Source: a virus
Strand: one strand, 5' to 3'
DNA length: 64,000 bases
IMG/VR virus record: IMGVR_UViG_3300049203_000068
Location: 1-64,000 of that record
The notes under the pieces are model-generated. The model saw only the letters and a program-made list of their open reading frames with translations, had not been told where the DNA came from and did not search any database. The first letter of the stretch is position 1, and every line of letters starts with the position of its first letter. The translations under genes were made by a program, and so were the position numbers. Shown one piece after another: positions 8,482 to 60,003 of this stretch.

Positions 8482-8511
8482 TGACCATAAACATCTAACT
8501 AGGAGATGATC

Positions 8512-8979
8512 ATGGCTTCCGCAAATCTTAACTCACGGCGTTCGCGCCAACAAACCTTCGACCTAACAACCATACTGGACGGAATAAGACAGCCGGAATA
8601 CGTCCATCTAGTTAATGCTGATGACGGCGAACTGCATAACGGCGACTATTTACTAGTGGATCGCCTGCGACGCCCGCGTAAAGGTGATTGGGTTGTCTGG
8701 AGCGAAGATAATCAGCACCATATCTGCCGATACGAGAGCGCAGCTAAAACCGGAGAGATCTACGCCGTTGTTGTTTCATTAATCCGCGACTTCCGCAAAA
8801 TCAAACGTCCAAAATCACAAGACAGAAAGATCTCTCAGTTAAATGACGCTCTTGCTCGCCTTGAGCGTGTGCCTGAAAACGAGGCTGAACGATTCAGGCT
8901 GGAGACGGAGATCTTTAAGTTGGGGCACGTCTCAGACATGGAAGAATGGCCGGACGTGATCGGGGTGCAGCATGAGTGA
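8512..8979 (+). CDS. S24/LexA-like beta-fold protein without catalytic serine
   Basis: A 155-residue protein. ATG 8512 is six bases after AGGAG; an ATG at 8506 would abut the ribosome site. Residues 28-95 (YVHLVNADDGELHNGDYLLVDRLRRPRKGDWVV...ICRYE...) follow the LexA/UmuD C-terminal pattern, in which a surface with 'GDxLLVD' and 'GDWVV' precedes a K/RRY strand. The usual SM serine motif is absent. A helical C-terminal domain (100-145) follows. It could be a repressor-binding or dead-peptidase protein. This assignment is a fold-level inference. Confidence 0.5.
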   Translation: MASANLNSRRSRQQTFDLTTILDGIRQPEYVHLVNADDGELHNGDYLLVDRLRRPRKGDWVVWSEDNQHHICRYESAAKTGEIYAVVVSLIRDFRKIKRPKSQDRKISQLNDALARLERVPENEAERFRLETEIFKLGHVSDMEEWPDVIGVQHE

Positions 8980-9139: not shown

Positions 9140-9255
9140 TCACCTTCACGTTCAGTCTATTCGGTCGGCCCTTTACATTTTGGTTTGGCTTCCATAGAGC
9201 GATCCGAGTGCCCGGATTCGAGAAGACAGGAGTGAGATCATGGCCACCCCGTTAA
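9136..9255 (+). CDS. micro-protein, aromatic/hydrophobic (39 aa)
   Basis: ATGA overlap with the preceding stop. The N-terminal half is Phe-rich (FTFSLFGRPFTFWFGF) and could associate with the membrane. It overlaps the start of the RAMP-like gene by 16 bases. Only the coupling argues for translation. Confidence 0.35.
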   Translation: MITFTFSLFGRPFTFWFGFHRAIRVPGFEKTGVRSWPPR

Positions 9256-9866
9256 AAGCGCTACTTCCGACAACGAACGATGCCGCGTCCACCATCTCTT
9301 TCGAGGAGCCGTACATCGTTGCATTTGCGATTGAGGGGACGGCTCCGCTAATCTTTCACCGCTGGTCTTGCGAGGCAGTAGAAGAAAAGGCCAAAGCCGC
9401 CAAGAATAGTAAGGCTAAGAAAACCGATAATATCGAGAGTTACGTTTACCGCAACGAACTGAATCAAATCTGTCTGCCCGGCGAATACATCCGACAAAGC
9501 ATGATTCATGCGGCGAAGTTCAAACAAGATCCACGCTCGCCACGCAAGTCAGCAATGGATCTTTTTAAGGCGGGTATCGTTGCGTTAACAGAACTCGCGC
9601 CGTTGAACGGCGGGACCGAAACATGGGATTACATCGATCAGCGTCGCGTTGTGGTTCAACGGAACGCCATCTCTCGGATGCGTCCAGCGTTTGCAAGGGG
9701 ATGGACCGCCGACTTTGAATTCTCGGTAATAATACCGGAGTATATCGACTCCCAGTTATTGCATGAGGTTCTAACATTGACTGGACGGTTGATAGGAACG
9801 GCTGACTGGCGGCCCTCTTACGGAAGGTTTCAAGTCAGTAAGTATGAGGTTTTACAGTTAAGGTGA
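9240..9866 (+). CDS. RAMP-like phage protein of unknown function
   Basis: A 208-residue protein from ATG 9240 behind AGGAGTGAG. Order of elements: beta strand YIVAFAIEGTAPLIFHRW (about 25-42), a Lys-rich linker, a helix after LPGEYIRQSMIHAAKF (79-94), a beta strand with R-rich segments (QRRVVVQRNAISRMRPAF), then a helix and glycine/aromatic loop LTGRLIGTADWRPSYGRF (180-197). This order of ferredoxin-like strand, 'PGxxIRxS' helix and terminal 'G-x-G-x-F' loop recalls RAMP/Cas7-type RNA-binding folds; that is inference. It is the last gene of the rightward operon. Its stop codon lies within the first unit of the pentamer tract at 9862-9936. Confidence 0.6.
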   Translation: MATPLKALLPTTNDAASTISFEEPYIVAFAIEGTAPLIFHRWSCEAVEEKAKAAKNSKAKKTDNIESYVYRNELNQICLPGEYIRQSMIHAAKFKQDPRSPRKSAMDLFKAGIVALTELAPLNGGTETWDYIDQRRVVVQRNAISRMRPAFARGWTADFEFSVIIPEYIDSQLLHEVLTLTGRLIGTADWRPSYGRFQVSKYEVLQLR

Positions 9867-9936
9867 GGAACGCTGGGGTATGGTGAGGTACGGTTTGCGG
9901 AGGTTAGGTGCGCCGTGCTATGGCAAGCTGAGGATA
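9862..9936 (+). repeat. 15 phased pentamers G[G/C]NNN between gene end and terminator
   Basis: From 9862 every fifth base is G, and the next base is G (10 times) or C (5 times), for 15 consecutive pentamers (9862, 9867, 9872 ... 9932). The third base is usually T. The first pentamer contains the TGA of the RAMP-like gene, and the phase holds up to the first base of the terminator stem. The tract is not an exact tandem repeat, so strand slippage alone does not explain it. It would be transcribed as the 3' UTR. A phased RNA-binding site, like the spaced triplets bound by TRAP rings, is a possible reading. Confidence 0.75.
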
Positions 9937-9965
9937 CGGCCAGTTTCGGCTGGCCGTTCTCTTTT
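9936..9965 (+). terminator. rho-independent terminator of the rightward operon
   Basis: Perfect 8-bp stem ACGGCCAG (9936-9943) / CTGGCCGT (9950-9957) with a 6-base loop, followed by TCTCTTTT. It ends rightward transcription shortly before the convergent leftward operon. Confidence 0.9.
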
Positions 9966-35530: not shown

Positions 35531-37245
35531 GGCAGTTTCACTCCTGTATAAACAAATTCAGCCTTCTTTCCTGAGAGATTACGATAGAAATAGTAACCCT
35601 GTGCTCTTTGCGTCGCGGCTTGCTGATTCTGTTTTCCCTCAGTAGTTTCCCAAACAACTGTTATGCGACTGCCTACGACAGGACCGGGATCAGGAGTCGG
35701 AGAAGGCGTAGGGCTGGGCGTCGGCGTCGGAGTAGGTGTCGGAGTCGGGGTCGGGCTGGGGTCTGCAACGCTCGTTGCGCCCTCTCTCCAAGCTAAGTAT
35801 CTTCCGCCCGATCGGTATGACTCGTCATATTCCTTCGCCCGAAATGACGCGAGACTTCTATAGTTATCTGCTCCGGAATAACTTGAATCAAACATCTCAT
35901 CCGCTGCCGCTTGTAGTTTTGGATCGCCGGTCAGCGAATAAGCATATGCGAGTGCGTGAATGCTCGGGTTGTTTAATTGTCGCCCTTCCGCTATCTGGCT
36001 GAGATCCGATGGAGGGAAAAGGCTAGCTACCGTTCCGCAACCATTCGTGCAGTCTGTACCGTCATTGAAACTTCCGCCAACGAAGTAGTACGTCGCACGC
36101 CAGCCATTTGGATTGTAGCCCAACGAATAAACTGCTTGAGCGCCGCGCACAATAGACTGAGCAATGTTCGAATCACCCGTCAGTCGGTGCGCTTGGATCA
36201 TTCCCTCAAGCAAGATGCCAACATGAAACGGCTGCATTGTGTCGCCCACGTCGATCGCGCCGCCCCAGCGCCATGATCCGTCAGACTGCTGCATCTTCAG
36301 ATAGTAATCAAGGCAAGCACTTACGGCCTTTCCTCGCATTTCATCACGCACGACAGCGTCAGGATGTACTCGAGCAAGGTTTGACGCGTAGAGCACCGTA
36401 AAGCCGCCATCACGGACGCCGAAATAGAGGCCCGTGAACTTCAGGCGAATCGGGGTTCCTATCCATTGCTCAAAGTGCGTGCGCACGTAGTTGGTAATCC
36501 ACGGCCACATTTCAGGGCGGCCATCGAGCGCGCGCAGTATTAGGCCGTTCAAGCTAATGTTCCGCGGCGCAAGCGAGAATTCGGCCGGCGTGCGGCCTTC
36601 GTCAATGAATGGCGCCCGCCACCAACCGTCGGCAATCTTGCGGGCGTAATCTCTGAAACGTATATCACCCGTGCGGTAGAAGTTAATCCAGTGAACGGAC
36701 GCCTGGTCATAATAGTTCGTATCAATGAACGGGTTGAGTTCGTCACCTATTGTCAACACGACAGATAGTCCGCTTTGTGATGGCTGCCCCCATGACTCGG
36801 AAGATTCATTCCCCCAGCGCATTGTCAATTCAAGCGACGTGTCATCGACGACACGTTTGATGTAGTGCGAACGTAGTACGCCGGTCGTATCTCTGATCCA
36901 GAACGCTGTATCAGGCGCGTTTGTGATTACCTGTGTAAACTTTGTGTTCGTGCCCGTGACGAGGTTCGATCCCCATTCGACCGCGACCGTACCTGTAAGT
37001 TGACGCATCGGCGGATCCATAGGGAACGCTGCGCCATGTACCAGACCGCGATCGATGGCGGTCTGATCGAACCAAGAAGCACCTGAGATTTGAGATGTTC
37101 CTGATTTACTCTGTGGGCCAATAATGAATTCAACTTCAGGAGAAGGGAAGATTACTTGTTCATCAATCATAGTTTGATTATTCCAGTTACCTGCCAGTAA
37201 GAGCGGCAATAAGATCGGGATCAAATATGCTCTGAGTTTAATCAC
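35527..37245 (-). CDS. secreted alpha/alpha-toroid-like protein with TP-rich linker
   Basis: A 572-residue protein. N-terminal signal peptide (LRAYLIPILLPLLLAGN). Residues 200-470 show repeated helical pairs (YARKIADGWW, ISLNGLILRALDGRPE, GKAVSACLDYYLKMQQSDGSW, HVGILLEGMIQAHRLTGD, SIHALAYAYSLTGDPKLQAAADE) as in glycosidase/lyase toroids. Then a Pro-Thr linker (about 495-522), and a C-terminal 45-residue module (VVWETTEGKQNQQ...). Probably a polysaccharide-acting or virion-associated enzyme; the signal peptide is unusual for a tail protein. GTG start directly after the previous stop. Confidence 0.55.
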   Translation of the reverse strand: MIKLRAYLIPILLPLLLAGNWNNQTMIDEQVIFPSPEVEFIIGPQSKSGTSQISGASWFDQTAIDRGLVHGAAFPMDPPMRQLTGTVAVEWGSNLVTGTNTKFTQVITNAPDTAFWIRDTTGVLRSHYIKRVVDDTSLELTMRWGNESSESWGQPSQSGLSVVLTIGDELNPFIDTNYYDQASVHWINFYRTGDIRFRDYARKIADGWWRAPFIDEGRTPAEFSLAPRNISLNGLILRALDGRPEMWPWITNYVRTHFEQWIGTPIRLKFTGLYFGVRDGGFTVLYASNLARVHPDAVVRDEMRGKAVSACLDYYLKMQQSDGSWRWGGAIDVGDTMQPFHVGILLEGMIQAHRLTGDSNIAQSIVRGAQAVYSLGYNPNGWRATYYFVGGSFNDGTDCTNGCGTVASLFPPSDLSQIAEGRQLNNPSIHALAYAYSLTGDPKLQAAADEMFDSSYSGADNYRSLASFRAKEYDESYRSGGRYLAWREGATSVADPSPTPTPTPTPTPTPSPTPSPTPDPGPVVGSRITVVWETTEGKQNQQAATQRAQGYYFYRNLSGKKAEFVYTGVKLP

Positions 37246-49060: not shown

Positions 49061-50557
49061 TCATGCCGCTATCCCCAGTGGTATCCAGATCCTTTCGTTA
49101 CCTGGAGACGCCGTATAAGAGCGGCGCTCACAGATACCGAACGATATGCCCTTTATCCAGTAATCCTTCACTTCGATCTGTGGGGTCATCGTATTCAGCA
49201 GCCGGCGCTTCTGATCGCGATTCAGTTCATCGAATGAGACGAACGCTCTGAATATCTTGGCCAGTAATTCAACCCCAAACGCTGGCTCTTGTTCGCGACT
49301 CAGCATCTCTTCCGTCGTTTGTTGCTCGCGCTGGATTGTCAGGAGACGTGTATTGCGTTCGTCTTGCCCGATGACACCTTCAAAGTAAGAATCCAGCACT
49401 CGTTGGCGTTTTGCCGTAAGACTCTTGATCTGTGATCCAAGACGCTCGCGGTCAAGGGGCTTTGCTGACAGCTTTGATGCTTGAAGTTGAGACTGAAGAA
49501 AAGCCGGGTTCGTTAGCTTCTTAGTGAACGCTTCGTCCAGTCGCGGATCAAGCCGGTCACGTCGCATGTACCTAGCTCCGCATCCGTCACGACACTTGTA
49601 ATAATCGCCGCGGTGGATCGCTGTGTAGATCCTTGCTCCGCATAGGCATTTCAAAAAGCCGTTGTAGGTAAACCGATGCTCGAATCCTTCTATATGTCGC
49701 CATGCCTGTAGTTTCTTGACGTCGAGAATTCGTTGCACGTGATCGAACTCCGACTCTGATACGAGTGGATCGAGCACTCGCACCCTGATCACCTCATCGG
49801 CAGCTCGGTTGATTTTGCGCTTGCTTCCTTGGCGTCCGTTCTTTGTCGCGTACTTGCCGGTCGGTGATGGGTCACACTTCTTATCGATCACTCTGACGCC
49901 GGTATAGATCGGGTTTCTGAGAATCCGTCGCAGCCTATGAGCAGGCAATCCCAGCTTGTCGCCTATCGCGGCGTAAGATGTTTCGCCAGCCAGAATTAAA
50001 CGAAACGCTTCTTTGACCTTTTCGGCGTTAGCGGTGTATGACCACGTACCGTTGAAATCAACCCCATAAGGCAGACAGTTTTTACCGGCCGGAAATCCTC
50101 CAGCTCTTCGTTTTTCTTCTTTTGCGGTCCACGTTCTTTCTAGTATCTCAGACCGCTCCATGCCCGCGATCGCCGCGCGGATCGTTCCCATCAATCTGCC
50201 TGTCTTTGATGAGAAGTCTATCGGTCCTTCGGGCAAGTAAAGCATCGTGTTTGAATCTGCGAACGCCTGAAGCAGAGCGTAGTCAGAAAACTTTTCCGGC
50301 CTCATTAATCTTGAGAACTCCCGCGCAACTACGGCATGTATTTCAGGGTCATTCATCAGGGTTACAAGTTCCTGAATCTCGGGAGCTAGCAACACGGCAG
50401 CACCAGACACATCCGATATCTCAATCGAGCGAATGATCGTCAACCCGTAAGCAAGCGCAGTCTTACGGTTAATTGCTCGCTGTGCCGGAATCGAGGCTCT
50501 ATCCTCTGCGGCCTGCGATTCTGTGGACACTCTTATGAGTTCGATTGCGTGCTTCAT
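49061..50557 (-). CDS. large serine recombinase (integrase)
   Basis: A 498-residue recombinase. N-terminal resolvase domain with catalytic Ser11 (IRVSTESQ), conserved REFSRLMR and GRLMGTIRAAIAGMER. A recombinase domain (GGFPAGKNCLPYGVDF, helix-turn-helix HRLRRILRNPIYTGVR) follows, then a zinc ribbon (CLCGARIYT...YKCRDGCGARY) and a coiled coil (about 385-425), as expected for phage integrases. It marks the phage as temperate. It lies inside the leftward operon. attP could not be located. Confidence 0.92.
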   Translation of the reverse strand: MKHAIELIRVSTESQAAEDRASIPAQRAINRKTALAYGLTIIRSIEISDVSGAAVLLAPEIQELVTLMNDPEIHAVVAREFSRLMRPEKFSDYALLQAFADSNTMLYLPEGPIDFSSKTGRLMGTIRAAIAGMERSEILERTWTAKEEKRRAGGFPAGKNCLPYGVDFNGTWSYTANAEKVKEAFRLILAGETSYAAIGDKLGLPAHRLRRILRNPIYTGVRVIDKKCDPSPTGKYATKNGRQGSKRKINRAADEVIRVRVLDPLVSESEFDHVQRILDVKKLQAWRHIEGFEHRFTYNGFLKCLCGARIYTAIHRGDYYKCRDGCGARYMRRDRLDPRLDEAFTKKLTNPAFLQSQLQASKLSAKPLDRERLGSQIKSLTAKRQRVLDSYFEGVIGQDERNTRLLTIQREQQTTEEMLSREQEPAFGVELLAKIFRAFVSFDELNRDQKRRLLNTMTPQIEVKDYWIKGISFGICERRSYTASPGNERIWIPLGIAA

Positions 50558-58887: not shown

Positions 58888-60003
58888 CTATGCAAACGCC
58901 GGCTCCTCAGTGCTGATCAGGTTTGGATCTTTCTTCGCCGCCTCTCTTGCTCTGTCAACCAAGTCATCCCATGCTGGAAACGCTCGCTTGGCGTTAGCGA
59001 TTACCTGAACATTAAGATCCGTCATCTTTGCGTTAGTCACACAACGCTTGAATACCCGATTCATATCCGAGATGGACTTATCGACTTTCTCTCGATACTC
59101 CATTGGGGTTTTGAATCCGTAGAGCATCGTTAGATAGTTTGAGTACTCAATCTTCCAATTCTTTTCGAAGCGAAAGAGTTTTTCGTCAAATAGGATTTCT
59201 TGCTCCAGTCGCGGACGCTCTTTGTTCAAAACGTATCCCGTGATCTCGGTAAGATCCGCAACGTACTCGCTCTCGACCGGCGAGGGATTCAGGATCGGAA
59301 ACTCAAGTAGCATGCAGTCATCGCGGCAGACGTAAACTATGTGCGCCTCGTTCATCCCCAGCGACTTGAGATAGTGAAACGCCTGTGATCGATGGTTAAC
59401 GCCCGGCTGTTGTGATCGGTCATACTTCGCGTACATGAACGTCGAACAACTTTTGATTTCTAAGACGATAGTCTTTAATGCGTCGTTACCAAATTGCTTT
59501 TCAAGGCTGTCAATGATCGCCAGCGAAGCGTTTTCCAGCATTTCCGGTAAGCCAAGAAAGCTTAGTTCCTTGCGCGCCTTGCGCCAGTCGGGTTGGCCGC
59601 CCGCCAGGAAGTCAAGTTTGCCCGACACTCGCAAGAGGCCCGGATACTGGTAGCTGAGTCTGGTTTGCTGTTCGACCAATATCCCGGCCCGCTTCAGTAC
59701 CAATGCGCAAAGCCATTCCCAAATGTCACCCGCCTGAAACTTTCTTAGGCTGCGATTGTTTGGCGCGTTACTCGGCTGAACGCCGCTCATCTTCAAATAA
59801 CGGTCAAGCATCCCGCCGCCGATCTCCGAAGCCCACACGTAGTCTCGCGGGACCAGCAAACGCTCTTGACGAACCACTAGCGATTGATTCCAAACGTTCG
59901 CAAAGTCCCACGATGGACCATCGTGAACCACTCGCGGCTCAGGCAGGGGCGCGGTCCACCCAAGCGCGGCCTTAAGTTTTTGCAGTAGAGCGTTAGCGAT
60001 CAT
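58888..60003 (-). CDS. PD-(D/E)XK nuclease (RecB/Cas4-like)
   Basis: A 371-residue protein. GDIWEWLCALVLKRAG (Glu96), VSGKLDFLAG (Asp131), TIVLEIKSC (Glu182, Lys184) and HRSQAFHYL (motif IV Gln) form a complete PD-(D/E)XK site. A four-Cys cluster is not evident. It is probably a recombination exonuclease acting with the SSB-like protein upstream. Confidence 0.8.
   Translation of the reverse strand: MIANALLQKLKAALGWTAPLPEPRVVHDGPSWDFANVWNQSLVVRQERLLVPRDYVWASEIGGGMLDRYLKMSGVQPSNAPNNRSLRKFQAGDIWEWLCALVLKRAGILVEQQTRLSYQYPGLLRVSGKLDFLAGGQPDWRKARKELSFLGLPEMLENASLAIIDSLEKQFGNDALKTIVLEIKSCSTFMYAKYDRSQQPGVNHRSQAFHYLKSLGMNEAHIVYVCRDDCMLLEFPILNPSPVESEYVADLTEITGYVLNKERPRLEQEILFDEKLFRFEKNWKIEYSNYLTMLYGFKTPMEYREKVDKSISDMNRVFKRCVTNAKMTDLNVQVIANAKRAFPAWDDLVDRAREAAKKDPNLISTEEPAFA

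Follow-up and report, generated by a model that had tools for sequence, protein, structure and literature searches.

A putative minimal VIPR locus with one guide tract in the 3′ UTR of vipr in a probably temperate phage

A probable minimal VIPR locus

We found that a short locus in viral DNA, in which a gene for a RAMP-fold protein is followed directly by an in-phase tract of pentamers and an intrinsic terminator, is very probably a minimal VIPR system carried by a temperate phage. The window analysed here is a 64,000-nucleotide stretch (positions 1 to 64,000 of the IMG/VR virus record IMGVR_UViG_3300049203_000068), and all coordinates without a locus name refer to it. Our analysis establishes the tract, its conservation beside vipr, the homology and fold of the protein, and the skip code of the clade. 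A sequence-only reading of this DNA had proposed an undescribed phage ribonucleoprotein; the system instead belongs to an already known family, published in 2026 as VIPR (PMC13142463).

VIPR, reported in a preprint of April–June 2026, combines a RAMP protein, Vipr, with a guide vrRNA (PMC13142463). Vipr is a small, single-RRM, ancestral RAMP homologue, and the vrRNA consists of 9–16 tandem YNNGG (GGY/NN) repeats, with ‘a related consensus’ allowed for some of the seven published types (PMC13142463). In recognising double-stranded DNA, the NN letters leave out one base of the target per repeat, and the system represses competing phages and prophages (PMC13142463). Loci ‘typically’, but not universally, include a vap accessory gene, and VIPR has been proposed as a CRISPR ancestor (PMC13142463). 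Expression of the vrRNA, RNP formation, DNA binding and repression have been shown for SUSP1 and P. fulva (PMC13142463).

The window locus has the following features.

9228–9232, + strand: Shine-Dalgarno-like AGGAG, 7 bases 5′ of the vipr ATG (read from sequence)
9240–9866, + strand: vipr gene, RAMP/Cas7-fold protein of 208 aa (homology and predicted fold)
9783–9830, + strand: glycine-rich loop region, GRLIGTADWRPSYGRF, residues 182–197 (alignment)
9862–9936, + strand: predicted guide part of the vrRNA, a tract of 15 G[G/C]Y-NN pentamers in phase (sequence; homologous tracts in relatives)
9936–9965, + strand: intrinsic terminator, stem 9936–9957 followed by a T-rich tail (sequence and folding)

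The gene product belongs to the Vipr family

By sequence homology and predicted fold, the product of the ORF at 9240–9866 is a member of the Vipr family with a RAMP fold. A phmmer search of the PDB with the single sequence gave one meaningful match, 36pp_D, annotated ‘SUSP1 Vipr protein’ (E=1.6e-6), and a profile of 46 homologues matched the 36pp SUSP1 Vipr chain over most of its length (E=5.4e-36). The ORF falls in phrog_4652 (function unknown; E=1.1e-18), and its product matched no Pfam family. AlphaFold2, run on the homologue alignment, returned a confident model (pLDDT 85.9, pTM 0.78), in agreement with the RAMP-like protein proposed from the letters. The best Foldseek matches of this model among solved structures were Csm3 and type VII Cas7 subunits (probability 1.00, E about 1e-7, TM about 0.55), and this evidence is independent of 36pp because the structure library predates that entry. 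Within the glycine-rich loop region, G182, G186, P192, G195 and R196 are invariant among the 46 aligned homologues; by analogy with the published protein, this region may correspond to the RAMP G-loop (PMC13142463).

The window Vipr shares its fold with the RAMP proteins of Class 1 CRISPR systems (Csm3 and type VII Cas7) at 12–17% identity, but its locus contains no CRISPR array or cas operon, and VIPR guides are read discontinuously. A Class 1 CRISPR–Cas assignment was rejected: the locus has no direct-repeat array, its pentamers share only G[G/C]Y, and the neighbouring genes are not cas genes.

Fifteen in-phase pentamers extend from the stop codon to the terminator

The sequence count gave 15 unbroken in-phase G[G/C]NNN pentamers at 9862–9936, exactly the tract first noticed. 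Every pentamer starts with G, and the second base makes GG in ten and GC in five. At the third position, 12 of the 15 have a pyrimidine (the remaining three being two A and one G), which gives the window consensus G[G/C]Y-NN, although strict GGY occurs in just 8 of 15. Of the three bases written as N in G[G/C]NNN, the first is thus a conserved pyrimidine; constraint falls on three positions of each pentamer, and the last two vary freely. These two, which read GA AC GG AT GA AC TT GA TA GC GT AT AA GA TA, are variable but not filler: by analogy with the published systems, they are information-bearing guide letters that would read DNA.

As had been claimed, a tract of this length is beyond chance, since neither simulations nor shuffles ever reached 15 pentamers. 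The longest other such runs within the window were 6 on the + strand and 7 on the − strand, and a first-order Markov simulation of 20 windows gave longest runs of 5–6. The maximum was 7 in 2,000 simulations with the composition of the tract itself, and 20,000 mononucleotide shuffles produced zero runs of 14 or more. A period-6 G-rich repeat elsewhere in the window (35681–35763) encodes a Pro-Thr linker on the minus strand and is unrelated to the pentamers.

The tract spans the interval from stop codon to terminator stem, as originally described. The TGA of vipr (9864–9866) sits inside the first pentamer, GGTGA, and a terminator-like hairpin starts at 9936, flush with the end of the tract, with T-rich sequence to about 9965. 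This hairpin is an intrinsic terminator. Its sequence shows no conservation among relatives, and the hairpin is presumed to form the 3′ end and tail of the vrRNA. The tract did not fold better than its shuffles (z −0.47), in keeping with an RNA that is extended and coated by protein and not structured. Rfam searches of 20 loci found no family, and no hammerhead at the gathering score.

Phased tracts accompany vipr across distant relatives

Phased GG tracts lie near the homologous genes of felixounaviruses, Pseudomonas phage Medea1, phage DSL-LC04 and IMG/VR contigs. We collected 105 homologous loci, 89 of them distinct. At least one scored GGYNN tract was present near vipr in 88 of the 89, nearly always on the vipr coding strand, with a finder whose GGY weights were learned from this Vipr family, so that weaker tracts may be missed. 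Among 39 unrelated viral loci taken as a control (758 kb of strand-bases in all), not one GGYNN tract was found. The proposed tie between tract and protein thus extends to distant homologues; homologues without tracts and a non-RNA-binding fold, which the sequence-only reading had listed as evidence against itself, were both checked for and neither occurred.

The tracts lie just 5′ of the vipr Shine-Dalgarno, just 3′ of the stop codon, or at both places, and the first downstream tract is mostly within 40 bases of the stop codon. Across 257 unique tracts, the composition was 95% G, 83% G and 90% Y, followed by two near-random positions. Very long in-phase arrays, of up to about 99 unbroken pentamers, occur in L033 (−1160 to −666 from the vipr stop), L022, L070 and L013; they far exceed the 9–16 repeats of a single published vrRNA and are possibly the ‘staggered overlapping’ arrays of the preprint.

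Strict phase without sequence identity can also mark a DNA element, in which case the phased GG steps would serve, as double-stranded DNA, as a site for protein binding or replication. We regard this as the least probable of the readings considered, with very little weight left to it, as the tracts are almost always on the vipr coding strand (reverse-strand tracts occur in 3 of about 104 loci), the window terminator follows flush after its tract, and vrRNAs of the VIPR family are transcribed and Vipr-bound (PMC13142463). Across the clade, a terminator lay flush after the last tract in 14 of 65 cases, compared with 22 of 1,300 control positions.

The one-base skip code is reproduced in this clade

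The NN letters of the 257 unique tracts were searched against all collected loci and matches with a score of at least 17 were counted. Reading with a single skipped base gave 30 such matches, whereas skips of 0 and 2 gave none and a skip of 4 gave one; a skip of 3 was left out of the comparison as it is self-matching by construction. Reversing the NN order at skip 1 gave 0 matches and eight random orders gave 0–2. The 30 matches come from 9 guides and, with several homologous copies among the targets, do not amount to 30 independent events. Inside vipr ORFs, the skipped base is codon position 3 in all 15 of the 15 matches, which come from three guides. The one-base skip rule is thus independently reproduced in this clade.

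Several of these guides point to apparent VIPR-against-VIPR targeting between phages. Arrays of L070 (2208–2452 and 3133–3447) match the vipr motifs TD-IESYV-RNE and NLPEYIP, and an array of L022 (3086–3385) matches RTRPAM-GW; the matched conserved codons belong to vipr of L018–L020, L029, L035, L038–L043, L066, L074, L084 and L085. Guides of L093 (2317–2456) and L069 (4660–4734) match DUF669 genes (Pfam PF05037, E about 1e-16), which lie directly upstream of vipr in the Phycisphaerae-associated elements L077 and L089–L094, and a further such gene in L096. An L025 guide matches a portal-like gene of L037 (P22_portal, E=2e-5, narrowly missing the family cut-off).

The skip code also bears on a TRAP-like alternative, in which multimers of the protein on the 3′ UTR of vipr would regulate the vipr mRNA. 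The five-base step and the short, conserved G motifs are reminiscent of TRAP sites, and the tract does lie within the 3′ UTR of vipr. Even so, such autoregulation is highly improbable: the fold is RAMP and not TRAP, it takes a one-base skip for the variable NN letters to decode to targets in other phages, and in many relatives there are several distinct tracts, or some that lie 5′ of vipr. TRAP-type binding of (G/U)AG triplets was rejected on the RAMP fold together with the G[G/C]Y-NN consensus. The suggestion that the protein coats its own 3′ UTR or unspecified RNAs therefore gave way to a VIPR guide whose NN letters would read DNA instead. A ribonucleoprotein nevertheless appears, by analogy, to be the best reading, as originally put forward, because SUSP1 Vipr co-purifies with its vrRNA (PMC13142463).

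The window locus differs from type II VIPR and resembles three environmental phages

The SUSP1/felixounavirus VIPR (type II; 36pp; wV8 gp95-gp94) has the same Vipr family and pentamer code as the window, with about 25% identity between the SUSP1-type Vipr and the window protein, and its tracts likewise lie near vipr, within about 600 bases (L007). Type II systems encode several vrRNAs, and their 3′ tail, which contains a pseudoknot, is invariable (PMC13142463). By contrast, the single tract of the window begins on the vipr stop codon and is followed by a plain terminator, of a sequence that relatives do not share. Type II loci also carry vap1 (phrog_5926 in wV8 and Medea1) directly downstream of vipr, whereas no vap1 homologue was detected in the window. 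We found no match in the window to vap1 of wV8 or Medea1, the gene downstream of vipr in L006, or the L089 helicase. In relatives, a helicase-like ORF lies downstream of vipr in 11 loci (for example, L089 3445–5376) and is a candidate accessory gene there. A lysine-rich protein of ~147 aa overlaps the vipr stop by 4 bases in L006 (3600–4043) and seven similar loci; it matched no Pfam or PHROG family and had no detectable similarity to vap1 of wV8 or Medea1.

The IMG/VR environmental phages L001, L010 and L011, at 75–78% protein identity, are like the window in having a tract at the stop codon, a flush terminator and a relaxed G[G/C]Y motif. Their last tracts are also flush with terminators, which are of unrelated sequence. 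They differ in carrying a tract just 5′ of the vipr Shine-Dalgarno, whereas no upstream tract was found at the window locus, and in having more downstream pentamers (about 19–38, compared with 15 in all).

The predicted target of the window guide and the possibility of decay

Decoded with a one-base skip, the window guide gives the predicted target GANACNGGNATNGANACNTTNGANTANGCNGTNATNAANGANTA, which in the wobble frame reads [DE]TG[IM][DE]T[FL][DE]YAV[IM][NK][DE]Y. No target was found in a local search with 3 mismatches, in viral_contigs with exact seeds of 8 to 11 NN (exact 11-NN, exact 10-NN and four 8-NN seed scans with extension; best 23/30 letters), or in about 650 genomes from two phyla, where as many as 3 mismatches were allowed. 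No match in these searches stood out from chance. Seed matches to the peptide ‘TGIET’ were rejected because extension failed. The pilin-like peptide DESGMETLEYAMIAGLI of L153 (about 3272; 23/30 letters) is a weak lead that was not accepted as a target, because its last three NN mismatch and follow-up genome scans were empty.

Five of the 15 window pentamers being GC rather than GG could mean weakened binding or decay, and one alternative is that the locus is a degenerate VIPR remnant, with vipr intact and its single guide decaying. Along with these five pentamers, the three purines at the pyrimidine position, the low count of strict GGY, the lack of an upstream tract or recognisable accessory gene in the window, and the lack of a match for the guide all speak for such a remnant. 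However, L001, L010 and L011 are relaxed in the same way (C 27% versus 8% elsewhere) and yet keep long arrays, so that the relaxation looks like a clade-specific motif; furthermore, all 15 first Gs are retained and the terminator is intact. We therefore consider a remnant unlikely. Taking the window and these three relatives together, C occupies the second pentamer base in 27–31%, compared with 8% in other loci, and this relaxed position may reflect either a clade-specific reading rule or early guide decay.

Proposed mechanism and significance

In the minimal VIPR system that we favour, vipr and the pentamer tract are most likely co-transcribed, with the transcript ending at the terminator (9936–9965). 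The 3′ UTR would yield a vrRNA of about 75–100 nt, and Vipr subunits would bind this RNA in step with its pentamers, with one subunit at each G[G/C]Y, as processing and binding in published relatives suggest. Each NN dinucleotide would be left free to pair with DNA at GANACNGGNATNGANACNTTNGANTANGCNGTNATNAANGANTA, on either strand and probably within coding sequence, where the skipped bases would fall at codon third positions. Binding would then repress the target gene, presumably in a competing phage or prophage. More tentatively, and with somewhat less than an even chance, the locus may represent a variant of VIPR, in which a 3′-UTR guide is cut from the vipr mRNA and a plain terminator and relaxed G[G/C]Y motif occur without an accessory gene, within a wider clade with arrays of up to ~99 pentamers and guides directed at the vipr genes of rivals, at conserved codons.

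As a form of RNA-guided DNA recognition, VIPR has only recently been reported and rests so far on one preprint (PMC13142463). The window locus and about 100 relatives back the skip code with independent sequence evidence from beyond the two experimentally studied clades, and the relatives suggest that phages target the vipr genes of rivals and a DUF669 family. With one gene and one guide, apparently on one transcript, the window layout is among the smallest, and its relaxed G[G/C]Y motif allows the requirements of Vipr for reading an RNA to be tested directly.

Genome neighbourhood

An integrase-type serine recombinase is encoded at 49061–50557 (−; phrog_95, E=5e-49), and the phage is therefore probably temperate. 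Terminase matches, tried for host inference, were distant only (about 30% identity). A Cas4-domain-like exonuclease at 58888–60003 (−; phrog_1706 and phrog_1990) is of a kind common in phages and lies away from vipr. Two genes upstream of vipr, the protein encoded at 8506–8979 (+) contains a weak S24/UmuD-like stretch.
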